Shown: positions 10,703 through 40,346 of the stretch, piece after piece
How positions within the stretch are numbered: the first letter of the stretch is position 1
Layout of the letters: every line of letters begins with the position of its first letter
Notes under the pieces: generated by a model
Seen by the model: only the letters and a program-made list of their open reading frames with translations
What the model was told of the DNA's origin: nothing
Databases searched by the model: none
Position numbers and translations under genes: made by a program
Assembly (NCBI RefSeq): GCF_900156625.1
Contig: NZ_FTOB01000001.1
Coordinates: forward strand, 186,001 to 250,000
DNA: 64,000 nucleotides
Source: Zobellia uliginosa
GTDB lineage: Bacteria; Bacteroidota; Bacteroidia; Flavobacteriales; Flavobacteriaceae
Direction: 5' to 3'

Positions 10703-10757
10703 AATTTATATGTTTTGGCCTACCGTTCGTCGGATATACCGAACCGCTTGTATTTTT

Positions 10758-10785
10758 CACAACAAGCTGCCTAACGTACACAACA
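10758..10785 (+). promoter_or_regulatory. 21-bp-spaced CACAACA direct repeat, copy A
   Basis: Two CACAACA heptamers exactly 21 bp (two helical turns) apart, just before a TAATTTAG box. This geometry fits a dimeric activator binding one DNA face next to the polymerase. Confidence 0.55.
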
Positions 10786-10946
10786 ATAATTTAGACAGCT
10801 AGATATTCCGACGTAGGTTTACAGTGTAATTAAGTGAGAGTAATGACCCCAAATCGACGCTTGAACTTAAGCCCAACAGCTAACAATCCCCAAATGTGTT
10901 AACTGACCTAAAAAGACAAACACCAAATTGACCAAATCTACTTGAT

Positions 10947-10973
10947 AAAAACCTCTTTATAGAGGTTTTTTTT
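10947..10973 (+). terminator. Intrinsic terminator of copy A
   Basis: Arms AAAACCTCT and AGAGGTTTT followed by more T residues. It ends copy A and would also catch hflX read-through. Confidence 0.8.
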
Positions 10974-11053
10974 ATGCCCCTTACTTTCGTAAAAAATACG
11001 CTTTGCCACTAGGGGATGCCGTTCATCGGATATACTGAACCACTGGTATTTTT

Positions 11054-11081
11054 CACAACAATTTGAGCTGTGTACACAACA
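11054..11081 (+). promoter_or_regulatory. 21-bp-spaced CACAACA direct repeat, copy B
   Basis: Identical heptamers and spacing to copy A, with a different 14-bp filler, so the heptamers rather than the filler are conserved. Confidence 0.55.
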
Positions 11082-11262
11082 ATAATTTAGACCATAGGGC
11101 AAACCTATGTAGATTTACAGTGTAATTAAGAGAGAGTAACGATTCCAAATCAATTCTTGAACTTAACCCCGACAAGTACGAATCCCAAATCCGGACTTGA
11201 CCTACGAAACGCTTACAAACCGTGACCCCAAATCACGAACCCGATCTTACAAGAATACCTAC

Positions 11263-11300
11263 AAAACAAAAAAGCCCGTTCACACGGGCTTTTTTGTTTT
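11263..11300 (+). terminator. Intrinsic terminator of copy B
   Basis: Arms AAAAAAGCCCGT and ACGGGCTTTTTT around TCAC, continued by GTTTT. Nearly symmetric, so it could also act on the minus strand. Confidence 0.9.
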
Positions 11301-11366
11301 TACATAACGCTCTTCCCCGAGGGAAGAATTAAGGTGCATTTCATCGAACAAAAATACATTTTAACG

Positions 11367-11566
11367 AGTTACACCACAAATTGGGCATGCTTTACAACAA
11401 ATATTTAGTGTTCACGACCTTGCCGATTACATTAGTCTTGTATTTGAAATTTAGTGTACGTCCCAAATAAATTACTTAATCAAGGTTTGATTTATTATTG
11501 ACTGTACAACCAAACTTAACGTATCCTACTTAAAAACAAAACGCCCCGACAAATGTCGGGGCGTTT
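11367..11566 (+). ncRNA. Diverged candidate unit, copy D
   Basis: Third unit in the row. CACCACA (11372-11378) and TACAACA (11393-11399) are again 21 bp apart and are followed by ATATTTAG at 11401-11408. The body is mostly unlike A-C but contains a CCCAAAT stretch in a possible loop near 11461-11470 (arms ATTTA/TAAAT) and ends at a terminator. Support rests mainly on the spacing and position. Confidence 0.3.
11539..11566. terminator. Terminator shared by copy D and the DUF3078 gene
   Basis: A 13-bp perfect stem (AAACGCCCCGACA/TGTCGGGGCGTTT) around AA. It lies 28 bp past the stop of the minus-strand DUF3078 gene and at the end of copy D, so it probably works both ways. Confidence 0.85.
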
Positions 11567-11594
11567 CGTTTATACTGAAACAAACAATACTCGA

Positions 11595-12527
11595 TTAGAA
11601 CGAATAGTTAAGACCGAAAAGGTAGTAACTCTGCAAATCATTATCGATATTATCAAAAGTCGGGGTAGGAGTTGGAACCGGAACGGCGGCCAATGCATTA
11701 CCCAAAGCTTCTTGCTTATTATTTCTCAACCCGAATTCAAAACCTACGCCGATACCTTTCCAAAGTGTATAACCAAAGGAATTTATCCATGTCCAGTTTG
11801 AAAGGTCTCCGCTTTTATAGCTCTGAAATGTAGAGAAATTGGTCTTGAAATTGATAGCACCCAATTTTTTGGTATAATCCATAACAATCTTGGCACCTGC
11901 AGATGATTCGTAAGCCGTATCGTTATCAGCAAAGACAAAGTTGTAGTTCAACGGGTGAATAACCACTACCATATCAGGAATAGGAGTCCATGTAGCACCA
12001 ACACCAAAATCGAGATAACCTGGATCATTGAAATTGTTGATAATAGACGTCCTATATTCCCCTAAGGCGGAAATAGCAAAGTTCTTGTTCAACTTATATC
12101 CGTATAGGGATACAATGTTAAAGACATCGGTAGTTCCGTTAAACCCTTCTTCGTCGGCAGGGTTGTCCTTATCATCAAGTTTTACCCACTGCAAGTTAAC
12201 GTTGGCCGAGTTCTTCCAGAAGAACTTCTCCCTATCTAAATTCGCGTATGCGTTTACCGTAACCCCTATGTTTCCTGAAGAGTTGTTCGGTGTTCCTTGC
12301 GAATACCAATTGTTGAATTTCGAAAGATTGGCTCCAATGGTACCAAAAGCACCGATTTTCCACCCTGGAAAAGCATCGATTTGACCTTGAAGTGCATCTA
12401 CCCTAGCCTGTATGGCACTGATAGAATCTTTTTTAGTAGCCTGTTCTGCTTTTAATTCATCTATTGTTTGTGCAAAACCGAACGAAAACGTCAGAATTGC
12501 CATAGATGATAGAAGTAATTTTCTCAT
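11595..12527 (-). CDS. DUF3078 outer-membrane beta-barrel protein
   Basis: A 310-aa exported protein with a clear signal peptide (LLLSSMAILTFSFGFAQ). A short coiled region of about 30 residues (IDELKAEQATKKDSISAIQ) precedes a beta-barrel made of alternating strands, closing with YLFGLNYSF, whose final Phe is typical for outer-membrane insertion. The family is common in Bacteroidota and has no assigned function. It follows the DUF2480 gene by 66 bp but has its own promoter box. A proline/threonine loop near the C terminus (PVPTPTPTF) is probably extracellular. Confidence 0.85.
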   Translation of the reverse strand: MRKLLLSSMAILTFSFGFAQTIDELKAEQATKKDSISAIQARVDALQGQIDAFPGWKIGAFGTIGANLSKFNNWYSQGTPNNSSGNIGVTVNAYANLDREKFFWKNSANVNLQWVKLDDKDNPADEEGFNGTTDVFNIVSLYGYKLNKNFAISALGEYRTSIINNFNDPGYLDFGVGATWTPIPDMVVVIHPLNYNFVFADNDTAYESSAGAKIVMDYTKKLGAINFKTNFSTFQSYKSGDLSNWTWINSFGYTLWKGIGVGFEFGLRNNKQEALGNALAAVPVPTPTPTFDNIDNDLQSYYLFGLNYSF

Positions 12528-12555
12528 GGTTAATGTGTTTATTAGTTAAGACACG

Positions 12556-12563
12556 CAAAAGTA
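12556..12563 (-). promoter_or_regulatory. -7 promoter box for the DUF3078 gene
   Basis: TACTTTTG on the minus strand, 28 bp before the ATG, fits TAnnTTTG exactly. It suggests transcription separate from the suf genes. Confidence 0.5.
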
Positions 12564-12593
12564 CTAATTGTCACATTTCTTTGAGAAAAAATA

Positions 12594-13100
12594 CTACTTT
12601 CTTTTATACAAAGGTACCGAAGAGCAGGCTTCGCCGTACATAAGAGACTTAACAACAGACTGTAACTTACTTGTTGCCAGAAGATAAGCATTTGACGGAA
12701 CAGGTTTATTGCTACACCCCTTAATAATCACCATTTTATCTTTAAATTCCGAAATTTCTAGATTGGAAAGGGTTTCGGTGTACAAAACAGTCTCCAAATC
12801 CTCTAAGGAGCCTTGAACACACTTTTTGGCAAAGGGATGTAGGTGTGTAGCCAATAACATATATGCCCAACCCGGCACAATGGCATCGGTAGAACAATGT
12901 AGGGCCACATAGGCATCTTGATATTGAGACCAATCATGCTCCGCCGCACGGGACCGAAAATCCTTTTCCTTTAAAAGAAGTCCCTCAAACAGCCAGTTCG
13001 AAATATCAAAAAGCACACGCCTCCCCTGAACATAGTAATCTTCCAAGTTAAACGTAACCAATTTGCTCTCGGCTACCCTATTGATGATTTCGTCAGACAT
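12594..13100 (-). CDS. DUF2480 family protein
   Basis: A 168-aa soluble protein with no signal peptide, matching a family that in Bacteroidota usually sits at the end of the suf cluster. It keeps several cysteines, including KKCVQG, KGCSNKPVPS and EACSSVPLYKRK, which could bind metal or an iron-sulfur intermediate; that role is an inference from position. ATG 13100 (MSDEI) is chosen over a TTG two codons upstream. The gene follows sufT after 9 bp, so both are almost surely one transcript. Confidence 0.85.
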   Translation of the reverse strand: MSDEIINRVAESKLVTFNLEDYYVQGRRVLFDISNWLFEGLLLKEKDFRSRAAEHDWSQYQDAYVALHCSTDAIVPGWAYMLLATHLHPFAKKCVQGSLEDLETVLYTETLSNLEISEFKDKMVIIKGCSNKPVPSNAYLLATSKLQSVVKSLMYGEACSSVPLYKRK

Positions 13101-13109
13101 AATCAACTT

Positions 13110-13439
13110 TTATAACAAGCCTAATTCCAATTTAGCCTCTTCACTCATCAAATCTTGGGTCCATGGGGGATCAAAGGTAATCTCTACCTCTGCATCGCTT
13201 ACCAAATCCAAAGATTTCACCTTCTCCTCGACCTCGGCAGGAAGTGATTCCGCAACGGGACAGTTAGGAGAGGTAAGGGTCATTAGAATTTTAACCTCAT
13301 TTTCTTCGTTCACAAAAACATCGTAAATCAACCCTAGTTCATATATATCAACAGGAATTTCAGGATCGTATATCGTTTTGAGTACGGTTACTATTTTTTC
13401 GCCCAATTCTTGGCTATCTACTGCTATTTCTTCGCTCAT
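13110..13439 (-). CDS. sufT: SufT-like DUF59/MIP18 family iron-sulfur assembly protein
   Basis: A 109-aa DUF59 protein. The family takes part in maturing iron-sulfur proteins after cluster assembly. The hallmark TSPNCPVAESLP carries the conserved C60, and the helical N-terminal half has YDPEIPVDIYELGLIYD. It sits between sufE and DUF2480 in the suf cluster, which supports the assignment; the symbol follows common usage for suf-linked DUF59 proteins. Confidence 0.88.
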   Translation of the reverse strand: MSEEIAVDSQELGEKIVTVLKTIYDPEIPVDIYELGLIYDVFVNEENEVKILMTLTSPNCPVAESLPAEVEEKVKSLDLVSDAEVEITFDPPWTQDLMSEEAKLELGLL

Positions 13440-13493
13440 GTTCCTTAGATTAGTTCTTTAAAAATTCAGGTAGGTCACCCATCGGCCCACTAC

Positions 13494-13916
13494 CTAGTTC
13501 AATTGAGTTTGGTACGCCACCGCATACAACTTCAATTGTTTTATCATGCTTACCAGACCATTGGCCCTGGTAGGCGAAAGGTGCTCTTTCAATCCGATTT
13601 CGTCAATAAAATCGGTATTGGCGTCGATAATATCCTGTGGTTTTTGGTTGCTAAAGGCGCGAATCAAAATAGCGATTATACCTTTCGTTATAATTGCGTC
13701 GCTATCAGCGGTGAACACCAATTTATCATCATCGAGTTCCGCATGTACCCACACTTTGCTCTGGCAACCTTTGATGATATTGTCATCGGTCTTATATTTC
13801 TCGTCTATGAGCGGCAAGCTCTTGCCCAATTCGATCATATACTCGTAGCGCTGCATCCAATCATCAAACATTGAAAATTCGTCTACTATTTCGTCTTGTA
13901 TTTCCTTTATCTGCAT
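13494..13916 (-). CDS. sufE: SufE sulfur-acceptor protein
   Basis: A 140-aa partner of the desulfurase SufS. The acceptor cysteine is C51 in KGCQSKVW, the family signature, which receives the persulfide and passes it to the SufBCD scaffold. The length is normal. It lies 74 bp after sufS on the same strand. Confidence 0.95.
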   Translation of the reverse strand: MQIKEIQDEIVDEFSMFDDWMQRYEYMIELGKSLPLIDEKYKTDDNIIKGCQSKVWVHAELDDDKLVFTADSDAIITKGIIAILIRAFSNQKPQDIIDANTDFIDEIGLKEHLSPTRANGLVSMIKQLKLYAVAYQTQLN

Positions 13917-13990
13917 TATCGCTATTTTCGGTAAAAATACAACAAGTATCTATGGATTTCAATACTTTAAGAGAATGATAACTCCCCAAG

Positions 13991-15205
13991 CTATTCCAAC
14001 ATTGCTTTTGCGCGTGCTACAGCCTCGACCAAGGTATCTACCTCATCCTTGGTATTGTAGAAACAAAAGCTCGCCCTTACCGTACCGGGAATCCCGAAGA
14101 AATCCATTATAGGCTGGGCACAATGGTGGCCCGTACGTACGGCAACCCCCAGCTTATCTAAAATAGAGCCGATGTCATAGGGATGTAGCCCTTCAATATT
14201 AAAGGATATCACCGACGTTTTGTTTTTGGCCGTTCCGTAAATTCTAAGTCCCTCTATCTTCAGAAGTTCTTGGGTAGCATATTCAAGCAGGCCGTGTTCG
14301 TATTCGGCAATAGCATCAAAACCGATATGGTTCATATAATCAAGAGCGACACCAAAGGCGATGCCTCCACAAATATTCGGCGTTCCGGCCTCAAACTTAT
14401 GTGGCAGATCGGCATAGGTCGTTTTTTCGAAGGTTACTTCGGCAATCATCTCTCCACCTCCTTGATAGGGCGGTAACTTATTCAGCCATTCTTCCTTTCC
14501 GTAGAGCATACCTACACCGGTAGGTCCGCACATTTTGTGGGCCGAAGCCGCGTAAAAATCGACATCTAGCTGTTGCATATCCGCTTTAATATGGGGAGCC
14601 GCTTGTGCCCCATCAATTAAAACAGCAGCGCCGACCACATGTGCCTTATCTATAATTTCCTTGATAGGGTTAATGGTACCCAATGCGTTCGAAATATGGT
14701 TACAGAATACCAGTTTGGTCTTATCGGAAAGCAATTCATCATATACCTCCATCAACAACTCACCCTCCATATTCATCGGGATTACCCTTAAAACAGCACC
14801 CGTTCTTTCTGCCAACATTTGCCAAGGCACGATATTAGAATGGTGCTCCATCGCCGACACCAGTATCTCATCACCTTTTTTCAATAAGGTGGTAAACCCG
14901 TTGGCAACGATATTAATACTGTGCGTTGTACCTGAGGTAAATATAATCTCGTACGAATTTTTCGCATTGAAATGCTTCTGGATTTTCTGCCGTGCTATTT
15001 CATACTTATCAGTTGCTTCTTGCGAAAGCGCATGTACCCCCCGATGTATGTTGGCATTGTAATTATGGTAGTAATCTACTATAACATCTATAACCTGTTG
15101 AGGCGTTTGTGATGTAGCGGCATTGTCTAAGTATACCAAGGGCTTCCCGTTCACTTCTCTTTTCAGAATGGGGAAATCCTCTCTTATTTTATTTATATCT
15201 AACAT
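13991..15205 (-). CDS. sufS: Cysteine desulfurase SufS
   Basis: PLP enzyme of 404 aa that turns cysteine to alanine and loads sulfur on its own cysteine. The PLP lysine is K224 in ASAHKMCGPTG; the catalytic cysteine is C362 in RTGHHCAQP, the group II (SufS) context. The ATG at 15205 (MLDINKIREDFP) is preferred over one seven codons upstream because it leaves a normal distance to the TATCTTTG box at 15224-15231. It is separated from sufD by 300 bp with a terminator, so it probably opens a second transcription unit. Confidence 0.96.
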   Translation of the reverse strand: MLDINKIREDFPILKREVNGKPLVYLDNAATSQTPQQVIDVIVDYYHNYNANIHRGVHALSQEATDKYEIARQKIQKHFNAKNSYEIIFTSGTTHSINIVANGFTTLLKKGDEILVSAMEHHSNIVPWQMLAERTGAVLRVIPMNMEGELLMEVYDELLSDKTKLVFCNHISNALGTINPIKEIIDKAHVVGAAVLIDGAQAAPHIKADMQQLDVDFYAASAHKMCGPTGVGMLYGKEEWLNKLPPYQGGGEMIAEVTFEKTTYADLPHKFEAGTPNICGGIAFGVALDYMNHIGFDAIAEYEHGLLEYATQELLKIEGLRIYGTAKNKTSVISFNIEGLHPYDIGSILDKLGVAVRTGHHCAQPIMDFFGIPGTVRASFCFYNTKDEVDTLVEAVARAKAMLE

Positions 15206-15223
15206 AGTCGATCTTCTTAGATA

Positions 15224-15231
15224 CAAAGATA
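15224..15231 (-). promoter_or_regulatory. -7 promoter box for sufS
   Basis: TATCTTTG on the minus strand, 18 bp before the sufS ATG, an exact TAnnTTTG match. It overlaps the hairpin at 15229-15257. Confidence 0.5.
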
Positions 15232-15257
15232 CCCGATCGTAAAAACAAATCGGGTAT
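15229..15257 (-). other. Hairpin overlapping the sufS promoter
   Basis: Arms ATACCCGAT and ATCGGGTAT (9 bp) with an 11-nt spacer. No T-run follows on the minus strand, so it is more likely an operator-like inverted repeat than a terminator. Confidence 0.4.
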
Positions 15258-15294
15258 AAGAAGAATTCTATTTGTGTTTTGACTGCTTAAAACC

Positions 15295-15408
15295 TCAAGC
15301 CCCGCCAACTTTTAACCGGCTAATATCGTTTTTAAGACCAGACTGCTTTACAGAAGCATTATCCTTGTATTCCGTATCCCCATGTTGACAAATAGAATCG
15401 TGTTGCAT
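15295..15408 (-). CDS. Possible small ORF, 37 aa, between sufD and sufS
   Basis: ATG at 15408 to TGA at 15295 encodes a soluble peptide starting MQHDSICQHGDTEYKD. It follows the sufD terminator and precedes the sufS promoter. No family is recognised, no ribosome-binding site stands out, and an ORF this short can occur by chance. Confidence 0.25.
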   Translation of the reverse strand: MQHDSICQHGDTEYKDNASVKQSGLKNDISRLKVGGA

Positions 15409-15432
15409 CAGCACTAAAAAAATCCAAAAAAG

Positions 15433-15455
15433 AACGGCACTCCTAAAGTGCCGTT
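15433..15455 (-). terminator. Terminator after sufD
   Basis: Arms AACGGCAC and GTGCCGTT around seven bases. On the minus strand it is followed by CTTTTTTGG and another T-run, 51 bp past the sufD stop. Confidence 0.8.
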
Positions 15456-15505
15456 AAATAATTTCCGTAATTATAATATCTTACTAAAAAAAGACGTAGA
15501 ACCTT

Positions 15506-16822
15506 TTACAGATCAAAACCAAGGTTAACCCCTAACTTTTTAGCTATCAATTTATTGATCCGCGTTTTAAGCTCAGGGATGCGTACACTCTCCAAGACAT
15601 TATTGGCAAAGGCATACATTAACAAGGCTCGCGCTTCTTTCTTAGGAATACCACGGGATTGCAAGTAGAACAAAGCGTCTTCATCCAACTGCCCTATGGT
15701 ACAACCGTGGGAGCACTTTACATCGTCGGCAAAAATCTCCAACTGTGGCTTGGTATTGATCGTTGCCTTGTCGCTTACCAAAATATTATTGTTCTGTTGA
15801 AAGGCATTGGTTTTCTGTGCAATCTTATCTACGATGATCTTACCGTTAAAAACCCCTGTGGAATTATCCCCGTAAATACCTTTATAATCTTGGTGACTTT
15901 CGCAATTGGGCTCTATATGGTGTACTAGGGTATGATGGTCAACGTGCTGCTTGTCCCCCAAAATGGTAACCCCTTTCATGGTAGAATCGATATACTCGCC
16001 ATTCTGATAGAAATTGAGGTTATTACGGGTCAATTTGCCCCCAAAAGAAAAGGTGTGCACCTTTACCACGCTCTTGTCTTTTTGATCGATATAGGTATTA
16101 TCTATCAAGGAAGCCGAAGGTGCATCGTTCTGGATTTTATAATAATCGACAATGGCGCTTTTGGCCGCAAAGATCTCGGTAACCGAATTCGTCAAAACTT
16201 CGTTGGAAGTCAAACTCTGGTGACGCTCTATAATTTGAACTTCGGCGTTTTCTTCAGCAATGACCAAGTTTCTAGGCTGTAACAAAAGGGAAGCCTCGTT
16301 ACCTGTGGCGAAATGAATAATTTCGATAGGCTTCTTAGGCATTTTGTTTTTTGGGATGTATATATACGCCCCTTCCCTACTGAAGGCCGTGTTCAAACTT
16401 GTAAGCGATTCGTCTTTAGAGGCTACCTTATTGAAATACACATCGATAACGGGCCTGTACATGGGCTTGGTAAGCGCTGCGCTCATCAGGCAGATATCTA
16501 CCCCATCATGGGTTGTCTCGGAAAGATAAGAGCTGTAAATACCGTCTACAAAGACAATTTTATACGAATCGACTTCGTGTAAAAAGTACTTTTTAACGTT
16601 TTTATACTCAAGGGTATTTTCTTCTCGTGGAAAAATGCTGAAATCTATCTTTTGAAGACTGTTCAAGGAAGTGTACTTCCATGCCTCCTCCTTTTTGCTG
16701 GGGAAGCCTTTGCGTTCAAAATTCTTCATGGCCTCGGTTCGAACGTCGTGCACGGGGTGCTCGATATCTACGTTGTTTTCGAAGGCCATAAAAGATGATA
16801 TCAATTTGTCTTTTAAATCCAT
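15506..16822 (-). CDS. sufD: Fe-S cluster assembly scaffold subunit SufD
   Basis: A 438-aa subunit of the SufBC2D scaffold where iron-sulfur clusters are built. The C-terminal beta-helix core shows the SufB/SufD family segment HHTLVHHIEPNCESHQDYK and the late DVKCSHGCTIGQLDEDALFYL, with the conserved His and Cys region. It lies in the order sufA-B-C-D, 73 bp behind sufC. A terminator follows, ending the first suf transcript. Confidence 0.95.
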   Translation of the reverse strand: MDLKDKLISSFMAFENNVDIEHPVHDVRTEAMKNFERKGFPSKKEEAWKYTSLNSLQKIDFSIFPREENTLEYKNVKKYFLHEVDSYKIVFVDGIYSSYLSETTHDGVDICLMSAALTKPMYRPVIDVYFNKVASKDESLTSLNTAFSREGAYIYIPKNKMPKKPIEIIHFATGNEASLLLQPRNLVIAEENAEVQIIERHQSLTSNEVLTNSVTEIFAAKSAIVDYYKIQNDAPSASLIDNTYIDQKDKSVVKVHTFSFGGKLTRNNLNFYQNGEYIDSTMKGVTILGDKQHVDHHTLVHHIEPNCESHQDYKGIYGDNSTGVFNGKIIVDKIAQKTNAFQQNNNILVSDKATINTKPQLEIFADDVKCSHGCTIGQLDEDALFYLQSRGIPKKEARALLMYAFANNVLESVRIPELKTRINKLIAKKLGVNLGFDL

Positions 16823-16895
16823 ATTTTCTAATATTTAGCAACAAGCACAAAGTATAAAGTCCCTTGTCCTCTTTACTAGGTACTTCCGTACTATT

Positions 16896-17648
16896 TTAAA
16901 CCGCGGCCTCTTGCTTTAACCAATCGTACCCTTTTTCTTCTAGTTCCAATGCCAATTCCTTTCCTCCGGACTTAACAATTTTACCATTGTGCAATACGTG
17001 GACAAAATCGGGAACGATATAATCTAACAAACGCTGGTAGTGCGTAATCACTATTACCGCATTGTCTTTACTCTTTAGCTTGTTCACCCCATTGGCTACA
17101 ATGCGAAGGGCATCGATATCCAAGCCTGAATCGGTCTCATCCAAGATGGCCAATTTAGGCTCTAGCATAGCCATTTGAAATATCTCGTTTCTTTTCTTTT
17201 CCCCTCCGGAAAAACCTTCGTTCAATGAGCGCGACAAGAACTTACGGTCAATTTCCAAAAGCTCCGATTTTTCGCGGATCATCTTCAACATCTCGTTAGC
17301 GGGCATATCGGCAAGACCTTTGGCCTTTCTAGATTCGTTTATGGCGGTTTTCATAAAGTTGGTAACGGAAACCCCTGGAATCTCAACAGGATACTGAAAA
17401 GAAAGGAAAACCCCCTTATGGGCGCGTTCTTCAGGAGAAGTTTCTTCCAAATCCTCACCTTCCAACTGCACGCTGCCTTCGGTTACCTCAAATTCCTCTT
17501 TACCCGCAATAACAGATGCCAAGGTACTTTTTCCGGAACCGTTAGGCCCCATTATGGCATGAACCTCACCGGCTTTCACCTCAAGATTGATCCCCTTTAA
17601 TATTTCTTTGTCCTCTACACGGGCGTGTAAATTTTCTATTTTAAGCAT
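16896..17648 (-). CDS. sufC: Fe-S cluster assembly ATPase SufC
   Basis: ABC-type ATPase of 250 aa that drives shape change in the SufBCD scaffold; it is cytoplasmic and not a transporter. Walker A is GPNGSGKST (34-42), the signature is GFSGGEKKRNE, and Walker B is LAILDETDSGLDID. It sits between sufB (47 bp) and sufD. Confidence 0.97.
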   Translation of the reverse strand: MLKIENLHARVEDKEILKGINLEVKAGEVHAIMGPNGSGKSTLASVIAGKEEFEVTEGSVQLEGEDLEETSPEERAHKGVFLSFQYPVEIPGVSVTNFMKTAINESRKAKGLADMPANEMLKMIREKSELLEIDRKFLSRSLNEGFSGGEKKRNEIFQMAMLEPKLAILDETDSGLDIDALRIVANGVNKLKSKDNAVIVITHYQRLLDYIVPDFVHVLHNGKIVKSGGKELALELEEKGYDWLKQEAAV

Positions 17649-17695
17649 TTTACGAATCTTATTTATTATTCAAATATAAACTGCATTTGGCAAGA

Positions 17696-19141
17696 TTAAC
17701 CTACCGAGCCTTCTAAACTAATTTCCAACAATTTTTGGGCCTCTACGGCAAACTCCATAGGCAACTTGTTCAATACTTCCTTACTGAACCCGTTTACGAT
17801 CAAGGCTATGGCCTTTTCGGTGTTGATTCCCCTTTGGTTACAATAGAAAATCTGGTCTTCACCAATTTTACTAGTGGTCGCCTCGTGCTCTATTTGGGCC
17901 GTCTTATTCTTCACCTCGATATAGGGAAAGGTATGGGCCCCACATTCGTTGCCCATTAAGAGCGAGTCGCATTGTGAAAAGTTTCGCGCATTCTCGGCAC
18001 GGCTGTTCACTTGTACAAGTCCCCTATAACTGTTCTGTGATTTTCCGGCCGATATACCTTTGGAAATAATGGTACTACGGGTATTTTTACCCAAGTGTAT
18101 CATTTTGGTACCGGTATCGGCTTGCTGATAATTATTGGTAACGGCAATGGAGTAGAATTCCCCAATGGAGTTATCGCCTTTCAATATACAAGAAGGATAT
18201 TTCCAGGTAACCGCGGAACCGGTTTCCACCTGTGTCCAAGAAATCTTAGCGTTTTTCTCGCATAGCCCCCTTTTGGTCACAAAGTTATAAACGCCCCCAT
18301 TTCCTTCCTTATTCCCGGGGAACCAATTTTGTACCGTTGAGTATTTTATCTCGGCGTCATCTAGTGCAATAAGCTCTACGACCGCGGCATGCAATTGATT
18401 TTCATCCCTTGACGGTGCCGTACAGCCTTCTAGATAACTCACATAACTTCCTTCATCGGCTATGACCAAGGTTCTTTCGAACTGGCCCGTACCCGCTTGG
18501 TTGATCCTAAAATAGGTAGATAGTTCCATAGGGCAACGTACGCCTTTTGGAATATAACAGAAAGAACCATCTGAAAATACGGCCGAGTTCAAGGCGGCGT
18601 AAAAATTATCTTTCTGAGGGACTACCGAACCAATATATTTTTTGACCAGCTCGGAGTGCTCTTTGATTGCCTCCGATATGGAACAGAAAATTATCCCCTT
18701 TTCGGCCAAGGTCTTTTTAAAGGTAGTGGCCACTGAAACGGAGTCCATAACGATATCCACCGCAACACCCGCCAGTTTCTTTTGTTCGTCGACCGAAATC
18801 CCTAACTTTTTAAAGGTGTCCAACAATTCGGGATCCACCTCGTCCAAACTATCGTATTTGGGCTTTTTATTCGGGGCCGAATAGTATGATATCGCCTGAA
18901 AGTCGGGTTTCGTATAATTGACGTTCGCCCATTCGGGCTCCACCATTTCTTTCCAGTGTTTAAAAGCTTCCAAGCGCCAAAGCGTCATCCATTCGGGCTC
19001 TTCCTTCTTTTTTGAAATGGCGATAACGATCTCTTCACTCAATCCTTTCGGAAAGGTATCGGAATCGATATCCGTATAGAAACCGTACTCGTACTCCTTG
19101 GTTTCAAGTTCTTTTTTTAGTTCTTCTTCTGTATATGCCAT
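17696..19141 (-). CDS. sufB: Fe-S cluster assembly protein SufB
   Basis: The 481-aa catalytic scaffold subunit. Typical SufB features are visible: the [19 protein letters not shown] block, the [26 protein letters not shown] block with a cysteine implicated in cluster assembly, and the C-terminal [21 protein letters not shown]. The length is normal. It is 63 bp behind sufA. Confidence 0.97.
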
Positions 19142-19204
19142 CTTTTCCTGTTAACCAATTACCCGGAGTAATTGCATAAATATTTCGTTTTTTTGCTTTT
19201 CGCC

Positions 19205-19534: not shown

Positions 19535-19563
19535 AAGCATTTGGATTTAATCTAAATAGTTCA

Positions 19564-19872: not shown

Positions 19873-19876
19873 CAAA

Positions 19877-30464: not shown

Positions 30465-30471
30465 CACAAAT

Positions 30472-30500
30472 AAAAAAGCTCCGAATCGGAGCTTTTTTTT
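30472..30500. terminator. Bidirectional terminator after the BNR gene and at the end of copy C
   Basis: Arms AAAAAAGCTCCG and CGGAGCTTTTTT around AAT. Plus-strand T-run for the BNR gene, minus-strand T-run for the repeat unit. Confidence 0.9.
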
Positions 30501-30676
30501 AAGTAGGTTTTGATTTTTCCGGTGGGGACCGGTATTTCTTTTAAGCTTGTGTAGGTTAAGTAGCGGACTTGGGATTCGTTACTTGTTGGGGTTAAGTTCA
30601 AGAATTGATTTGGGGTCGTTACTCTCACTTAATTACACTGTAAATCTACGCCAGTATAAGCAACTATCTAAATTAT

Positions 30677-30704
30677 TGTTGTGAACCCGTCCATCCGTGT
30701 TGTG
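30677..30704 (-). promoter_or_regulatory. 21-bp-spaced CACAACA direct repeat, copy C
   Basis: Same heptamers and 21-bp period as copies A, B and E, on the opposite strand and 19 kb away. Confidence 0.55.
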
Positions 30705-30803: not shown

Positions 30804-30838
30804 TATAGTACTCTCTATAGGCTTCGACCTAGAATCGA

Positions 30839-31946: not shown

Positions 31947-31961
31947 GGTTTAAAATAACAA

Positions 31962-31998
31962 AAAATCCCAAACTCCATAAAGAGGAGTTTGGGATTTT
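31962..31998 (-). terminator. Terminator of the sdhCAB operon
   Basis: A 15-bp stem (AAAATCCCAAACTCC/GGAGTTTGGGATTTT) with a seven-base loop, a T-rich minus-strand tail, 38 bp past the sdhB stop. Confidence 0.92.
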
Positions 31999-32035
31999 AT
32001 ATTGTTTTAACGGTACCGGATAGGCACTTGTATTT

Positions 32036-32782: not shown

Positions 32783-32788
32783 AGCTAT

Positions 32789-34792
32789 CTATTTATAACT
32801 TCTTGTCTTCAACTCGATATTTTCGTACACCAACTCTTCCTTGTGCAAGACGGCATCTTTAGGCTCGCCTTTGTACTCCCAAGCGGAAACGAACTTAAAG
32901 TTTTCATCGTCACGTAGTGCTTCACCTTCAGGGGTCTGGTACTCTTCCCTAAAGTGCCCCCCACAAGACTCGTTTCTGGTAAGTGCATCTTTAGCAAAGA
33001 GTTCGCCAAGTTCTAGGAAATCGGCCACACGACCCGCTTTTTCCAATTCTTGGTTCATTCCATCGGCCTTACCTGGTATTTTTACATTCTCCCAGAAATC
33101 GGCCCTTAGGGCGGCAATCTCTACAATGGCCTCTTGAAGCCCTTTTGCGTTTCTTGCCATGCCACATTTATCCCACATGATCTTTCCTAATTTCTTGTGG
33201 TAATAATCTACGGAGTGCTGTCCACTACCCGACATCAATTTTTGCAAACGCTCTTTTACCGCAGCTTCTGAAGCTTCAAACTCGGGCAAGTCGGTAGGTA
33301 TGGCACCGGTTCTAATATCTTTCGACAAATAATCGCCAATAGTATATGGCAATACGAAATACCCATCGGCAAGCCCCTGCATCAGTGCCGAAGCCCCCAA
33401 ACGGTTGGCCCCGTGATCACTAAAGTTCGCCTCGCCCGCACAGTAGCAGCCCTCTATGGTGGTCTGTAGGTTGTAATCTACCCATAGTCCGCCCATGGTA
33501 TAGTGAACCGCCGGATATATCATCATTGGGGTTTCATACGGATTCTCGTCAACGATTTTTTCGTACATCTGAAAAAGGTTTCCGTATTTGGCCTCGATGA
33601 CTTTTTTACCCAAGCGTGTTATTTCTTTTTCATCAGGATTTTTGATACCGTGGGTAAGGGCTTCCTCCTTACCGTAACGTTGAATGGCCGAAGCAAAATC
33701 CAAATAAACGGCTTCCCCGGTTTTATTTACTCCGAAACCGGCATCACAACGTTCTTTTGCGGCACGCGATGCCACATCACGAGGCACCAAGTTTCCGAAT
33801 GCGGGATATCTTCGTTCTAGGTAGTAATCACGATCTTCTTCTTTTAGCTGGACCGGTTTTAACCGACCTTCCCGAATGGCAATGGCATCATCGATACGTT
33901 TTGGCACCCAAATCCGTCCATCGTTACGAAGTGATTCCGACATCAGGGTCAACTTAGATTGATGATCTCCGGAAACCGGAATACAGGTTGGGTGAATCTG
34001 TGTAAAACATGGGTTAGCGAAAAAGGCCCCCCTACGGTGTGCCCTCCAAGCCGCCATCACGTTACTACCCATAGCGTTGGTAGACAAGAAGAATACGTTT
34101 CCATATCCCCCTGTGGCCAAAACAACGGCATGTGCCGAATGACGCTCAATTTCACCGGTAACCAAATTACGGGCAATAATACCCCTTGCTTTTCCGTCGA
34201 CAAGCACCAAATCCATCATTTCATGACGGTTATACGCTTTGATCTTACCGCGATTGATCTGTCTGTTCATTGCGGCATAAGCCCCTAAGAGCAATTGCTG
34301 CCCTGTTTGTCCTTTGGCATAAAAGGTACGCGAAACGAGTACACCTCCAAAAGAACGGTTATCGAGCAATCCGCCATATTCCCTGGCGAAGGGTACACCT
34401 TGTGCCACACATTGGTCGATAATGTTGGCCGATTCTTCCGCCAAACGATAAACGTTGGCTTCACGGGAACGATAATCGCCCCCCTTTATCGTATCATAAA
34501 AAAGTCTGTAGGCACTATCGCCATCCCCTTGATAGTTCTTCGCCGCATTGATTCCTCCTTGAGCTGCAATGGAGTGGGCCCTACGTGGGGAATCTTGATA
34601 ACAAAAGGTTTTTACATTATAGCCCAATTCCGCTAAAGTAGCAGCGGCGGAACCACCTGCAAGTCCGGTACCAACAACGATAATATCAATATTTCGCTTG
34701 TTGGCGGGGTTTACAAGATTAATGTCGTTTTTATGCTGGGTCCATTTATTGGCCAATGGCCCTTTAGGAACTTTAGAATCCAATATGCCCAT
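32789..34792 (-). CDS. sdhA: Succinate dehydrogenase/fumarate reductase flavoprotein subunit
   Basis: The 667-aa catalytic subunit. The N-terminal Rossmann motif [17 protein letters not shown] binds FAD, SIAAQGG holds the covalent flavin region, and HPTCIP and RLGASAL mark the substrate and flavin domains. The length is that of the Bacteroidota and epsilonproteobacterial FrdA/SdhA class, longer than E. coli SdhA. The gene is 2 bp behind sdhC. Confidence 0.97.
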
Positions 34793-34794
34793 AA

Positions 34795-35463
34795 TTAATG
34801 TGTTATTGGGTTAAAATGATGGTATAGCGCGATAAATATGAATCCCAAAGGAATAACTATCGCATATATTTTTGTAAAAGTCTGTATGCCGGCCGAATAC
34901 TTGTTATTGACACCCATGGTCTGAAAGGACGAGGCAAAACCGTGCCATAGATGTAATGACAAGAGTACAAATGAAATAACATAGATTATAGTACGCGCGA
35001 AAGGCTCGAACTTATGTACCGTTTCCTCAAGATATCGGGTCGGGTCTTCAGGACTCACCTCTATATACTTATAGGTTATCTCATGTATCCAAAAATCATA
35101 CAAGTGCAACCCGAGAAAGGCAAGTACGACCAAGCCCGTGATGATCATGTTTCTCGACATCCACGAAGCATTGGCACTGCCCTTGTATTGTTTGTACTTG
35201 ATTGCCCTAGCCTTGTTGTTTTTTATCTCCAGTGCAATCCCCATGGCAAAATGCACTATAACACCAGCAATCAAAACAGGCTGAAGAATGTACTGTACCA
35301 ACCCGTTGTAGCCCATGAAATGAGACCACTCGTTGAACGTGTCGGGTGCAATTACCGAAGTAATGTTGATAATGAAGTGTTGCAAAAGAAAAAAGACCAA
35401 AAAAAGACCCGATAGGGCCATGACCACTTTTCGGGCTATCGAAGATTTTGTCAATCCGCTCAT
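34795..35463 (-). CDS. sdhC: Succinate dehydrogenase cytochrome b subunit
   Basis: A 222-aa membrane anchor with five hydrophobic helices, the one-subunit di-heme type found in Bacteroidota and Wolinella-like fumarate reductases. Candidate heme-ligand histidines lie in [26 protein letters not shown] and LHLWHGFA. It starts the operon and has the best promoter in the window. Confidence 0.95.
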
Positions 35464-35499
35464 TTTATAATAAGTTGGAGTTAGTTTAAAGACTGTTCA

Positions 35500-35531
35500 C
35501 AAAATTAGGGCATAAGCTCGGCTTTAACAAA
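35500..35531 (-). promoter_or_regulatory. Consensus promoter of the sdhCAB operon
   Basis: Minus strand TTTG (35528-35531), 20 bp, then TAATTTTG (35500-35507). This is the full -33/-7 arrangement known for Bacteroidota primary sigma factor, about 37 bp before the sdhC ATG. Confidence 0.8.
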
Positions 35532-35748
35532 CTTTTGGGCATTTAGTAAAGGTATTTAGAAACGTTTTAAGCAAGCCCTCCCCACCCGCCTATCAAGGCC
35601 CGCACAGCCCCTGAACACTATTGGGCCGTGCCATGGCGGCAGCCACAAAAAAAGAAGCCGTCCTATATTTTTTTCCTTGTCCTTCGTCTTATTGCAATTT
35701 TTGACCGATATTCAAGTCGCAAACGACCACTAACCTTCTCTTTTAATT

Positions 35749-36639
35749 ATGGATATTGGCCTACTATCAATGAGTATGAACGTCTATTCAACCCGGCGAA
35801 TAGCGGATGAAGCCAAAAAGCTGGGTCATCATATCGAATGGGTCGACCATACCAAATGTGCCATAAAAATAGGAGCCCGCCCGCCCCAAATTATCTTTCG
35901 TCAGGAAAATATCATCGATGCCTTCGATGCCATCATACCCCGTATCGGAACAAAGGTCACCCGACATGGGGTTGCCGTTGTCAAACAATTTGAGATGAAC
36001 CGTGTTTTCAGTACAGCGCACTCCTTGGGCATTTCTAGGGCGCGAAACAAGGCAAGGGCCCTTCAAATCGTAGCCCATAATAAAATTGCCGTACCCGATA
36101 CCTTATTCTCTATCGATCCCGAAAATATTTCGGCACAGATCGACGCTTTAGGAGGTGCCCCGGTAGTCATCAAATTACAGGAAGGCACCCAAGGTTTAGG
36201 GGTGATACTCGCCGAAACCAAAAAATCGGCAAAATCGATCATCGACACCTTCTACAAAATGGAAACCCATATTCTTGTTCAAGAATACATCAAAGAAAGC
36301 AATGGCGAAGACATTCGCATCTTTGTAGTAGGCGATAAGATCGTTGCCGCCATGAAACGCAGCTGTGAGCTCGATGATTTTCGGTCGAACCTACACCGCG
36401 GTGGCACCACGCAACCGGTTAAGCTTTCTTCCAAAGAACGGGCCATGGCACTAAATGCCGCCAAACACATCGGTCTAGGGGTGGCAGGGGTAGACCTGAT
36501 CCGCTCAAAAAAGGGCCCTTTACTACTTGAAGTGAACGCCTCTCCCGGATTACAGGGCATTGAATCGGTATCGGGCGTAAACGTTGCCAAAGAAATCATT
36601 TTGTTCGTTGAACGTAGTTGCCGCAAAAGAAAACGATAG
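35749..36639 (+). CDS. rimK: RimK-like ATP-grasp glutamate ligase
   Basis: A 296-aa ligase of the RimK branch. The ATP-grasp core is visible: KLQEGTQGLGVILAE (P-loop-like glycine-rich loop), ILVQEYIKESNGEDIRIFVVG, KRSCELDDFRSNLHRGG and the metal-binding LLEVNASPGLQGIE. Relatives add glutamates to ribosomal protein S6 or to coenzyme F420. The substrate here is not known. It is followed after 26 bp by an aspartoacylase-like gene, suggesting that one enzyme adds and the other removes an acyl or amino group. Confidence 0.9.
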   Translation: MDIGLLSMSMNVYSTRRIADEAKKLGHHIEWVDHTKCAIKIGARPPQIIFRQENIIDAFDAIIPRIGTKVTRHGVAVVKQFEMNRVFSTAHSLGISRARNKARALQIVAHNKIAVPDTLFSIDPENISAQIDALGGAPVVIKLQEGTQGLGVILAETKKSAKSIIDTFYKMETHILVQEYIKESNGEDIRIFVVGDKIVAAMKRSCELDDFRSNLHRGGTTQPVKLSSKERAMALNAAKHIGLGVAGVDLIRSKKGPLLLEVNASPGLQGIESVSGVNVAKEIILFVERSCRKRKR

Positions 36640-36665
36640 CCTATATAAAAAGTTACTAGTACCCT

Positions 36666-37631
36666 ATGCACAAAAATAAAACCATAACCATTGGAGGTGA
36701 AAGCGTAAAGCCTGGTGAAACCAAGTTGCTGAAAATTCCTATCGACCGTTTGCCTACCGGTACCTTGATCGATATACCGGCATATGTTTTTAATGCCAAA
36801 AAACCAGGGCCGACCCTTTTGGTCCAGGCTGGACTACACGGTGACGAGATCAACGGAATTGAAATCGTAAGGCGCATGTTGGCCGAAAAACGATTCCATG
36901 TTAGTGCAGGCGCCATTATAGCGGTGCCGGTATTGAATATTTTTGGTTTTATCCACTTTTCAAGGGATGTTCCTGACGGAAAGGATGTCAACCGTAGCTT
37001 TCCAGGTACCAAATCGGGTTCCATGGCCGGACGTATCGCCTATCATTATATGACTTCCATCCTTAACCAAATCGACTACGGTATCGACCTACATACCGGA
37101 GGAAGCCAAAGACACAATTTTCCACAGGTACGCTATACCGAAAAGGATGAAGAGAGTGCAAAACTGGCCGAAATTTTCAATGCCCCCATTTCCTTCTCAT
37201 CAAAGTTGATAAAAGGTTCTTTTAGAAATGCCGCCTTCTTGATGAAAAAACCCACTATCGTTTATGAAGCCGGGGAGAGCATGCGGCTTGACGATTACTC
37301 CATTCTCGAAGGAATGCAAGGCATTTTAAATATTATGAGCCACTTCGGCATGGCACAGCCCATAACCCCTCCTTACGTACAACGCAGCAAAACCACCCGT
37401 ATAGATAGCCGGAAATGGCTCAGGGCCCCAACCGCAGGTATGTTCATACCTAAAATATCGAATGGCAGCGAAGTTCATAAAGGACAGATATTGGGCATTG
37501 TTTCCGATACCTACGCCAAACACACAAAAACCATCAAGGCACCTTTTGACGGTCTCGTATTCTGTATTAACCATCAGGCCGTGGTCAACCAAGGAGAGGC
37601 ACTCTTTCATTTAGGAACCAAAAAACCTTAA
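36666..37631 (+). CDS. Succinylglutamate desuccinylase/aspartoacylase family protein
   Basis: A 321-aa zinc hydrolase of the M14-related AstE/AspA family. Zinc ligands are H58 and E61 in LHGDEINGIE, with the third histidine in DLHTGGS. The catalytic Glu lies in VYEAGE. The C-terminal 80 residues form a biotinyl/lipoyl-like beta barrel (VHKGQILGIVSD), usual in this subgroup. It is next to rimK and probably co-transcribed; a role in processing the RimK product is inferred. Confidence 0.88.
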   Translation: MHKNKTITIGGESVKPGETKLLKIPIDRLPTGTLIDIPAYVFNAKKPGPTLLVQAGLHGDEINGIEIVRRMLAEKRFHVSAGAIIAVPVLNIFGFIHFSRDVPDGKDVNRSFPGTKSGSMAGRIAYHYMTSILNQIDYGIDLHTGGSQRHNFPQVRYTEKDEESAKLAEIFNAPISFSSKLIKGSFRNAAFLMKKPTIVYEAGESMRLDDYSILEGMQGILNIMSHFGMAQPITPPYVQRSKTTRIDSRKWLRAPTAGMFIPKISNGSEVHKGQILGIVSDTYAKHTKTIKAPFDGLVFCINHQAVVNQGEALFHLGTKKP

Positions 37632-37735
37632 CGATTTATCCTTTTTTATAGGACTTCCCTAGATACATCAATCTAAGATATGGCATTGACTAAAGAAGCC
37701 TTCTGAACGCGGTCTGCCCAGCCAGTATTGCAACC

Positions 37736-38713
37736 CTATTTAGTAAACTTTCGTGAACTGGTCTGCTCGGCGGTAGGAAAATCGGCAGGAATAGACTGGC
37801 TTACCGCGCCTGTGGCCGCCCATTCGGCTCCTCTAAGCATACTGGTCAAAAAGCCGACACATTCAACCGAATAATCGACATGACCCATGATGTTATGAAA
37901 GATACGGCCCTTACCGTACTCTAGGGCCATAAGTGCAGGTTCGTGCCTACCTGTACCTTTGTTTTCTGGATCGGAATACGCGGTTGCCAAAACCTCCATA
38001 CGCTCTGCAGGGCCACGAAGACTATTATACAACTCATCTTTGGTATGCAACCACACTTTGGGCATACCCTTGGTAATCGGATGGTCTTCATTTCTTATTT
38101 GAACCTGATATTCGCTTTGCGGACCATGGGCACCGGCATTTCCAGGACTATTATCCCGAATAAGCTCACCTGCATCATTGTAGTACACATAAGGTCCGTC
38201 TTTTTCGGTACGATCGCCCCAACCGCCTAAACCGATCATTTGGTTATAGGCTTCCCATTTAGGAAAAGAATTGTCCGCAGCATGGAAAACGACCAATCCG
38301 CCTCCTTTTTTTATATACTTTTCAAACTTCTTCTGGGTCTTTTCGGGCCATGGTGCAGCATTCCATCCAAAATTACAGATGACTACATCGTATTTTGAAA
38401 AATCGGGACTATAGTTCGGGTCGGCCACGGGCTTTTCCTTTGCCTCGGTTTTAGGTAAATCTTTTATTGGAAATTCAGCGATAAAGTTATCTCCTTTCCA
38501 GGTATATGCCGAACGGGCGACCTCTACGGTAAACAAACCGGTGTTCTCCATTTCCGTTTTCAACATATAAGTAATCTTCGGCCATTGATCATGATTGTTT
38601 TGACCATCAACAATAAGTGTTTTTATTTTTTTGGATGAAGCAGTTTGTGAAAAAAGGGTATTGATGGTAAAAACCATGGAAAAAACTAAAACGAGAGTTC
38701 GAAAATTGCGCAT
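37736..38713 (-). CDS. ThuA-domain protein, exported
   Basis: A 325-aa protein with a signal peptide (TLVLVFSMVFTINTLFSQ) and a ThuA/trehalose-utilisation fold, related to class I glutamine amidotransferase-like domains: VVFHAADNSFPKWEAYNQMIGLGGWG and GHVDYSVECVGF. Family members occur in polysaccharide-degrading Bacteroidota and are thought to act on sugars, but no reaction is proven. ATG 38713 is chosen because the 103 codons upstream in the same frame overlap the aminotransferase and lack a signal peptide. Confidence 0.88.
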   Translation of the reverse strand: MRNFRTLVLVFSMVFTINTLFSQTASSKKIKTLIVDGQNNHDQWPKITYMLKTEMENTGLFTVEVARSAYTWKGDNFIAEFPIKDLPKTEAKEKPVADPNYSPDFSKYDVVICNFGWNAAPWPEKTQKKFEKYIKKGGGLVVFHAADNSFPKWEAYNQMIGLGGWGDRTEKDGPYVYYNDAGELIRDNSPGNAGAHGPQSEYQVQIRNEDHPITKGMPKVWLHTKDELYNSLRGPAERMEVLATAYSDPENKGTGRHEPALMALEYGKGRIFHNIMGHVDYSVECVGFLTSMLRGAEWAATGAVSQSIPADFPTAEQTSSRKFTK

Positions 38714-38825
38714 ATCATATGTTTTGGATGCATAAATATAAGGGATCACAATTAAGTTTATTAAAAAAAGAAAAAGTATGTGCCCCATAAAGTTGTAAAT
38801 TGAAATCTTAAATGAACAGTACCGA

Positions 38826-39983
38826 ATGACTTCCTCTAATTTGAGATTTTCATCTAAACTCCCCAAGGCAAAAACCACCATTTTCACTACGGTGGGCAAC
38901 TTGGCCCGAAAGAATAAGGCCATAGACCTTTCCCAAGGCTTTCCTAATTTTGAAATAGACCCTAAACTGAAGGAATTGGTCACAGATGCCATGGAAAACG
39001 GCCATAACCAATATGCCGCCATGCCAGGGTATTATGGTTTAAGGGAAATTATTTCAGAAAAAATAGAAAAACTACATAAGAGGCTTTACGATCCCGAAAG
39101 CGAAATTACCGTTACCGTAGGCGCAACTCAGGCCCTGTTTACGGCAATTACCGCCTTCGTAAACCATGGGGACGAGGTCATCGTAATAAAGCCAGCCTAT
39201 GATTGTTATGAACCGGCCATATTATTGAATGGGGGAATTCCCGTTTATGTACAACTCGACGCAAATGGCTACGAGATCGACTGGCAAGCCTTGAAAAGCA
39301 AGATTTCAGAAAAGACGCGTATGATCATCATAAATACGCCACACAACCCGAGCGGACGTATATTTTCAAGGGAAGACATGCTGCAGTTACAGGAAATCCT
39401 TAGGCCCACCAATTGCATCTTGGTGAGCGACGAGGTATATGAGCATATCATTTTTGATGGAAAGGAGCACCAAAGCGCTTCCCGTTTCGACGATTTGGCC
39501 CAGCGCAGCTTTGTTTGTGCCTCTTTTGGCAAAACTTTTCACGTCACCGGATGGAAAATCGGCTATTGCGCCGCACCTGCCGAACTAATGCAAGAATTCA
39601 GAAAAACACACCAATTTGCCGTGTTTTGTGTAGACCACCCCGTGCAAAGGGCAATGGCTTCCTACCTTAAAAACGAGCAAAACTATTTGGGCCTTTCTTC
39701 ATTTTATCAAGAAAAACGGGATTCGTTCCTAGAAGGATTAAAAGGCTCCAGATTCAAGTACAGACCCTCGGAGGGCACCTATTTTCAACTTTTGGATTAC
39801 ACGCAAATCACGGAAGAAGACGATGAAGCTTTTGCCAAACGATTGATCGTTGAACATAAATTGGCCAGTATTCCTATATCGTCTTTTAATGTCGGTAATC
39901 GGCAAGACGGTGTATTGCGATTCTGCTTTGCCAAGAAAAATGAGACCTTAGAAGAGGCCGTTAGCATTCTGCGTTCACTGTAG
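38826..39983 (+). CDS. PLP-dependent aminotransferase, methionine aminotransferase-like (class I/II)
   Basis: A 385-aa fold-type I enzyme. Visible are NLSQGFPNFE-like DLSQGFPNFEIDP, YAAMPGYYGLRE, NTPHNPSGRIF, VSDEVYEH and the PLP lysine K236 in SFGKTFHVTGWKIGY. The pattern is that of YbdL/kynurenine aminotransferase-type enzymes that use methionine, kynurenine or glutamine with 2-oxo acids. It is divergent from the ThuA gene across 112 bp. Confidence 0.9.
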   Translation: MTSSNLRFSSKLPKAKTTIFTTVGNLARKNKAIDLSQGFPNFEIDPKLKELVTDAMENGHNQYAAMPGYYGLREIISEKIEKLHKRLYDPESEITVTVGATQALFTAITAFVNHGDEVIVIKPAYDCYEPAILLNGGIPVYVQLDANGYEIDWQALKSKISEKTRMIIINTPHNPSGRIFSREDMLQLQEILRPTNCILVSDEVYEHIIFDGKEHQSASRFDDLAQRSFVCASFGKTFHVTGWKIGYCAAPAELMQEFRKTHQFAVFCVDHPVQRAMASYLKNEQNYLGLSSFYQEKRDSFLEGLKGSRFKYRPSEGTYFQLLDYTQITEEDDEAFAKRLIVEHKLASIPISSFNVGNRQDGVLRFCFAKKNETLEEAVSILRSL

Positions 39984-40022
39984 CAAGCACTATTTCGGCC
40001 CCAGATCAAAATAATAGCGCAT

Positions 40023-40050
40023 AAAAAAAGCGGCCTTTGGGTGAGCCGCT
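40023..40050 (-). terminator. Terminator of unit E
   Basis: Stem AGCGGC/GCCGCT with loop TCACCCAAAG and a seven-T run on the minus strand. The loop itself contains CCCAAA. It may also serve the plus-strand aminotransferase gene. Confidence 0.85.
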
Positions 40051-40075
40051 CTTGTAATTACTTTTTCAAAACATT

Positions 40076-40177
40076 TTACAGCATAAACAACTTCTTGGTC
40101 AGCATTACGATTCCGCTGAAAAAGTCGTTTTTATAAACTTGTATTTCTTCTTGTGTGTGATTGATTTGAGCTTCCAT
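40076..40177 (-). CDS. Small ORF, 33 aa, in unit E
   Basis: ATG 40177 to TAA 40076. The peptide starts MEAQINHTQEEIQVYKNDFF and ends with a hydrophobic helix (GIVMLTKKLFML). It is placed between a leader hairpin (17 nt upstream of the ATG) and a terminator 25 nt after the stop, which is the layout of a real short gene. No family is recognised. Confidence 0.45.
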   Translation of the reverse strand: MEAQINHTQEEIQVYKNDFFSGIVMLTKKLFML

Positions 40178-40269
40178 AGGTTTTTTATTTGGGCAAAATC
40201 GGATTTGGGATGCGATTTTCGATTAATAACAATATAAATATACGAATCACTCTTTAAATGGTAAAAAAC

Positions 40270-40300
40270 TTGTTGTGAAGAGTTCCCACATTGTTGTGAA
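40270..40300 (-). promoter_or_regulatory. 21-bp-spaced TTCACAACAA direct repeat, unit E
   Basis: The 10-mer TTCACAACAA occurs twice in full, 21 bp apart (read as TTGTTGTGAA at 40270 and 40291 on the plus strand). This is the best-conserved pair and defines the motif beyond the heptamer. Confidence 0.55.
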
Positions 40301-40346
40301 AGCCAATTTTTATACGCCCTACAACGGAGAAACCCCTGCCTTTAGC

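Follow-up and report, generated by a model that had tools for sequence, protein, structure and literature searches.

Small RNA-like repeats of Zobellia uliginosa as candidate decoys for a conserved, putative tandem small RNA of Flavobacteriaceae

A 64,000-nucleotide stretch of Zobellia uliginosa DNA (assembly GCF_900156625.1, contig NZ_FTOB01000001.1, positions 186,001 to 250,000; hereafter the window), from a genome of 5.3 Mb assembled into 27 contigs, holds five intergenic repeats, A, B, D, C and E, each with a pair of CACAACA-like heptamers and, at its end, a terminator-like hairpin. What might such units be for? A preliminary description took all five for an undescribed family of paralogous small RNAs (sRNAs). 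Our analysis suggests that this description fits A–D, which combine a fixed promoter and a terminator with the absence of an Rfam match, and does not fit E, which encodes a microprotein. The reading that we favor, with a probability of about 0.58, is that A–D are multicopy decoys (sponges) that titrate a second sRNA-like element, here called Z, which would hinder translation from E-type leaders. Regulatory RNA is sparsely mapped in the Bacteroidota, and marine Flavobacteriaceae play an important part in breaking down algal carbon.

Copies A, B and C are clear paralogues, as had been proposed: A and B share an 86-nt block with 80% and a 74-nt block with 84% identity, and an exact match to ACAGTGTAATTAAG is confined to these three copies. 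Searching for CACAACA-N14-CACAACA with ≤2 mismatches places the heptamer pair, with its 21-bp period, at the five copies and nowhere else in the window; 0.39 occurrences were expected, and 0 of 100 shuffles reached five. The terminators likewise bear out, with a terminator-like hairpin closing each of the five units, and an additional copy lies outside the window (G000:C16, about 564225-564391). D had been thought to keep only these landmarks. It aligns, however, with homologues from other Zobellia and from non-Zobellia genomes (16 rows: two for the window's own D, seven from other Zobellia, and seven from seven non-Zobellia genomes), which carry the same CCTACTTA ahead of the terminator, and judged by this alignment D is a diverged paralogue of A–C. 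The TAATTTAG-like box reported to follow the heptamers is real, but since it stands at the place of the Bacteroidota -7 box, whose consensus we take to be TAnnTTTG, we assign box and heptamers to the promoter rather than to the RNA. The hairpins with CCCAAA loops hold up in part: pairing is kept in 98.1% of cells, but support from covariation is limited, with two-sided change in 3 of 15 named pairs and in none of the pairs of the 10-pair RNAalifold consensus. The CCCAAA motif is repeated two or three times per RNA, in the predicted loops.

The preliminary description had also held that the copies encode no shared protein. E instead has a 33-residue open reading frame (ORF) that is conserved in its homologues. 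Of the 14 distinct ones, Zobellia contributes five and other genomes nine. Among them we count 415, 107 and 949 pairwise differences at codon positions 1, 2 and 3, and this concentration at third positions is the mark of a coding sequence. NCBIfam gave no match for the microprotein. E is a weak match to a covariance model of the RNA core (27.7 bits, E = 0.0049), and at locus L088 the family core (50.8 bits) is itself the leader of an E-type microprotein gene. These observations suggest that E and its kin are mRNA-like, with a leader resembling A–D.

The family extends well beyond the window. A BLASTN search with copy C finds matches in 15 of 60 genomes, its own included, with 4–5 in each of the nine Zobellia genomes, a few of which are short or terminator-like. 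The covariance model, built from 39 of 40 distinct cores (L042 was excluded for an insertion, and one truncated unit and identical cores had been excluded earlier), matches in 28 of 299 Flavobacteriaceae genomes and 24 of 236 genera. Its 58 matches reduce to 45 distinct core hits after removal of 10 overlapping-locus duplicates and three weak ones (L010, L016 and a second site in L070); 44 of these were found outside Zobellia by the model of the core alone, and the remaining one is E. A pattern scan gave 35 named stretches, including ones from Maribacter, Pseudozobellia, Ulvibacterium, Kriegella, Euzebyella and Aurantibacter. In the window, Rfam gives no match at gathering score, and for the A/B/D region at relaxed E-value all listed matches fall under that score. 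In 44 of the 45 core hits a CACAACA pair (≤3 of 18 mismatches) stands 56–57 bp 5' of the core match; in the exception, L110, the pair has 4 mismatches, and positions 150 bp further upstream have 6–11. With this pattern of promoter, core and terminator, A–D are putative RNAs. The core pattern matches 0 viral contigs, which speaks against a phage-borne element, target-site duplications not having been searched for. A phage origin was considered for Z as well as for the family and rejected, the Z pattern also having 0 matches in viral contigs. One could argue from their repetition, partly in tandem, that the units have no function as RNA and are, for example, mobile or regulatory DNA in decay, but we regard this as very improbable given the fixed spacing of promoter and core, the terminators, the matches at corresponding distances in Zobellia genomes, the viral result and a complementarity to Z that is strand-specific, as described below.

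Z came to light in a search of the own genome with GATTTGGGG, the complement of the family motif CCCCAAATC. It has 68 matches, where the reversed control has 23, and five of the 68 are spaced at intervals of about 240 bp. These five mark a locus outside the window with six tandem sRNA-like units of ~70 nt on one strand. Each unit consists of a -7-like box, CCATAGCATAAGTAGGTTAAGTT[C/T]ATGGTAAGATTTGGG and a terminator, a layout common to 81 units in 31 loci. The 30-nt core AAGTAGGTTAAGTT[C/T]ATGGTAAGATTTGGG (≤3 mismatches) is found in 106 of the 299 Flavobacteriaceae genomes and 88 of 236 genera, with 0 control matches and a copy number that ranges from one to seven; of 296 genomes in a phylum sample, 4 have it, all Flavobacteriaceae. 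Rfam at relaxed E-value reports no family at gathering score for four Z loci, and a literature search with four Z sequence strings found no occurrence. The literature within reach, which left aside most subscription papers and all supplements, names no such family. Because Z is present in many genomes without a match to the family model, it is likely the older part of the system. By eye, the Z array L329 (G000:C16:455800-458900) has the end of a purF-like gene on one side and a superoxide dismutase-like gene on the other.

The complementarity of Z to the family motifs is well supported by sequence comparison. Z is the complement of these motifs down to an identical 6-nt gap between CCCCAAATC and TGAACTTAACC, and CCCCAAATC-N6-TGAACTTAA (≤2 substitutions), with the spacing of the Z complement, occurs in the window in A, B and C only. 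Exact Z-complementary runs of at least 7 nt cover 34, 42, 37, 23 and 22 nt of A, B, C, D and E; such run lengths were reached by 0, 0, 0, 6 and 5 of 1000 dinucleotide shuffles, respectively. When Z itself was shuffled, 44 of the 45 family hits, tested in sets of 33 and 12, were matched by ≤5 of 100 shuffled sequences (30 by none), as compared with 5 of 45 for the reverse complements of the same hits; all 13 microprotein leaders were also matched by ≤5 of 100. Hybrid energies are significant for A, B, C and E, with 0, 1, 0 and 4 of 200 shuffled targets as good. At the leaders, the predicted duplexes with Z span -40/-31 to +5/+10 of the ATG, and in 8 of the 13 the CCAUAG end of Z pairs with all three start-codon bases. 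Three candidate Z-target sites in the genome (L394, L399 and L400) lie 16–30 nt 5' of a start codon. Lipoprotein-like genes at L399 (own genome) and L278 (G105), orthologous by eye, carry CCCAAATC shortly 5' of the start codon, and that at L278 stands under a heptamer pair.

On the basis of these data we propose that Z, carrying ACCAUAGCAUAAGUAGGUUAAGUUCAUGGUAAGAUUUGGGG, pairs with leaders in which CCCAAAUC precedes the start codon, those of E-type microprotein mRNAs among them, and that this pairing would hinder their translation. A–D repeat the Z-complementary motifs of the leader, CCCCAAAUC, UGAACUUAACC and ACCUACUU, with a terminator in place of the ORF, and could soak up Z once the promoter fires. 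Since the paired-CACAACA promoter is common to the decoys and E, its induction would yield the target along with the decoy and so release the target from Z. The decoys may have arisen from the leader of a microprotein mRNA, or the reverse. The sequence comparisons themselves show the family and its promoter architecture, Z and its conservation, the complementarity and the co-occurrence described next; that the units are transcribed and pair in cells, that Z represses and A–D titrate it, and which transcription factor is at work are what we infer from them. For Z. galactanivorans, a published microarray carried 19,345 intergenic probes (PMC5613140).

Z and the family keep company across genomes: all 28 family-bearing genomes have at least three Z copies, as compared with 26 of 271 others, and each of the 22 genomes that hold three or more heptamer pairs has two or more Z copies, as compared with 8 of 127 others. 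These counts are uncorrected for phylogeny, and this is the first of several points that weigh against the decoy reading. The hybrid energy of D is insignificant (matched by 71 of 200 shuffled targets and 29 of 100 shuffled Z sequences). Raw energy is unspecific, as a scan of the window ranks C 2nd, B 4th and A 7th among distinct stretches, with an unrelated one at the top. The fuller Z complement CCCAAATCTTACCAT is unenriched genome-wide, with 20 hits besides Z against 23 for the control, and 62 of 90 heptamer units that lack the core are unremarkable in the shuffled-Z test. E, three other Zobellia leaders and L269 pair only the A and U of the start codon, with another part of Z, and shuffled Z pairs all three start-codon bases in 356 of 1300 cases (27%). 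Set against 8 of 13, this makes contact of Z with the start region plausible but not proved by the start-codon test; we have moderate confidence that Z covers the start codon. Finally, TTTACAGTGTAA, the block most conserved at the RNA 5' end, is left unexplained by Z. This block (10818-10834 in A, with matching blocks in B, C and relatives) is nearly palindromic, and is present too in L010 and L016, units of a second class described below.

Since the complementarity of A–D and Z is symmetric, the roles could also be reversed: A–D would use their CCCAAA loops to regulate mRNAs, and the Z array would be the sponge that restrains them. The excess of GATTTGGGG, a possible target of A–D, is consistent with this, though the Z units themselves, and A, B and C read on the reverse strand, are among its 68 matches. 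We consider this arrangement unlikely, as Z in 106 genomes against 28 for the family seems to have a role without A–D, and the Z-complementary leaders precede a conserved microprotein. RNAs such as CsrB and RsmZ, which titrate a protein, have several hairpins with a shared loop motif and occur in several copies, and titration by A–D of an RNA-binding protein that recognizes CCCAAA hairpin loops would account for the recurrence of CCCAAA in the predicted loops of each RNA and in leaders of the same regulon. This explanation was demoted when Z was found and now appears improbable: unlike in CsrB and RsmZ, it is a complementary RNA that the conserved motifs of A–D match, and motifs outside the loops (TGAACTTAACC and ACCTACTT) are likewise conserved and Z-complementary. 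No candidate protein came up, although no search was aimed at one.

The paired-heptamer promoter stands at further genes as well. In a larger set of 101 units, distinct over 120 nt, with close relatives included and some loci fetched by heptamer or by heptamer-containing BLAST query, the heptamer pair is likewise placed in all 101. Further upstream lies a second pair of boxes, CCGTTCATC-like and also 21 bp apart, and the T residues that lie, counted from heptamer 1, at -29 and -8 are retained in 98 and 100 of the 101 units. This upstream pair resembles LytTR-type sites, in which a LytTR protein binds two direct repeats of 9 bp spaced at a period of 21 bp; period and key bases of the consensus are kept in the 101 units. 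The transcription factor of the paired-heptamer promoter was not found, and a literature search for three promoter sequence strings returned matches to two of them, in three unrelated papers. The heptamer pair (≤1 mismatch) occurs in 33 of 149 Flavobacteriaceae genomes, with 5 control hits in all, and at ≤2 mismatches it is found 11–16 times per genome in the nine Zobellia, as compared with 0–3 for the control. Zobellia units under it include an ECF sigma gene, present in 9 of 9 genomes, as well as an RNase R-like gene and, recognized by eye, one for a leucine-rich-repeat protein. Among 106 heptamer units from fetched loci (the heptamer listing outside Zobellia holds 117), CCCAA falls 76–95 nt after heptamer 1 in 22 of the 90 core-less units outside Zobellia, as compared with 24 of 630 same-size windows further down, which suggests a motif common to sRNA-like units and mRNA leaders.

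A second sRNA-like class stands under the heptamer pair and carries TTTTCATTTTCATATAGTGTTCTCG and a terminator. It is seen at L010, L016, L177-L179, L182, L183, L195, L229, L231 and L238 (own genome and relatives), and its TTTTCATTTTCATATAGTGTTCTCG is complementary to start regions of the ATGAAAATGAAAA kind. The heptamer pair also lies immediately 5' of similarly starting genes in L225 (G138) and L297 (G159); the L225 protein has a PAS S-box domain match, which makes it a possible sensor for the controlling system. Heptamer units with two tandem short ORFs of about 32–33 residues occur at L248, L251, L254, L256 and L261, in several genera, with a second ORF that begins MLYDTYGEEYL.

The features in the window are collected in Table 1. 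By Pfam, A, B and D have on one side a GTPase gene of the HflX type and on the other a DUF3078 gene, with suf genes beyond it; C is flanked by a sortilin/VPS10-like gene and a DJ-1/PfpI gene, and E by a CoA-transferase gene and an aminotransferase gene.

Table 1. Features of copies A–E, in window coordinates
Feature	Position	Strand	Basis
Copy A, two upstream boxes, CCGTTCGTC/CCGCTTGTA, 21-bp period	10723..10752	+	sequence
Copy A, promoter: heptamer pair 10758-10785, -7-like box TAATTTAG 10787-10794	10756..10794	+	
Copy A, putative sRNA, terminator-like hairpin at end	10801..10975	+	start inferred from -7-like box
Copy A, Z-complementary runs	10847-10855, 10862-10870, 10888-10895, 10932-10939	+	
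Copy B, promoter: upstream boxes from 11019, heptamer pair 11054-11081, -7-like box 11083-11090	11019..11090	+	
Copy B, putative sRNA, terminator arms 11263-11279/11284-11300	11097..11303	+	
Copy B, Z-complementary runs	11145-11151, 11158-11168, 11184-11191, 11226-11234, 11244-11250	+	
Copy D, promoter: diverged heptamer pair 11372-11399, box ATATTTAG 11401-11408	11372..11408	+	
Copy D, putative diverged sRNA, terminator arms 11531-11551/11554-11574	11415..11575	+	
Copy D, Z-complementary runs	11462-11468, 11513-11520, 11525-11532	+	
Copy C, promoter: heptamer pair 30704-30677, -7-like box 30675-30668	30668..30704	-	
Copy C, putative sRNA with terminator	30470..30661	-	
Copy C, Z-complementary runs	30615-30607, 30600-30590, 30563-30557, 30509-30500	-	
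Copy E, heptamer pair	40271..40298	-	
Copy E, leader: CCCAAATC 40209-40202, CCCAAAT 40193-40187, 5' of start codon	40187..40209	-	
Copy E, 33-residue microprotein ORF, stop included	40076..40177	-	
Copy E, terminator-like hairpin	40022..40050	-	

A 30-nt core that varies little or not at all across 106 of 299 genomes and has no Rfam match points to a widely kept regulator, and the decoy family supplies Z with a partner, a regulon and a microprotein. Taken as a whole, the system may be an undescribed RNA switch of the Flavobacteriaceae, in which a near-invariant tandem sRNA restrains a regulon through its start regions while the same promoter makes ORF-less decoys; we put this wider proposal forward tentatively, at somewhat less than even odds. 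If true, many sponges would stand against many sRNAs, with a bearing on why bacteria keep multicopy sRNA genes.

As far as the parts of the reports available to us go, the nearest known case is QrrX of Vibrio cholerae, a sponge RNA for the multicopy sRNAs Qrr1-4 (PMC9732341). There too, the sponge pairs with the conserved pairing region of multicopy sRNAs and has its own transcriptional control (PMC9732341), and in silico we find the same kind of complementarity to the conserved pairing region of another sRNA. QrrX, however, is a single RNA that has been shown by experiment to act with Hfq (PMC9732341), whereas the proposed sponge here is multicopy, has a promoter in common with its proposed target and is predicted from sequence. 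The FopS sRNAs of Bacteroides thetaiotaomicron, among the articles consulted the closest paralogous family from the same phylum, are also multicopy, but form a family of 14 members that represses SusC-like mRNAs directly and is bound by RbpB, with no partner sRNA described in the part of the article consulted (PMC11697453). Rfp18 of Flavobacterium psychrophilum is likewise a conserved sRNA from this bacterial family, described in the accessible text as one sRNA (PMC9723704).

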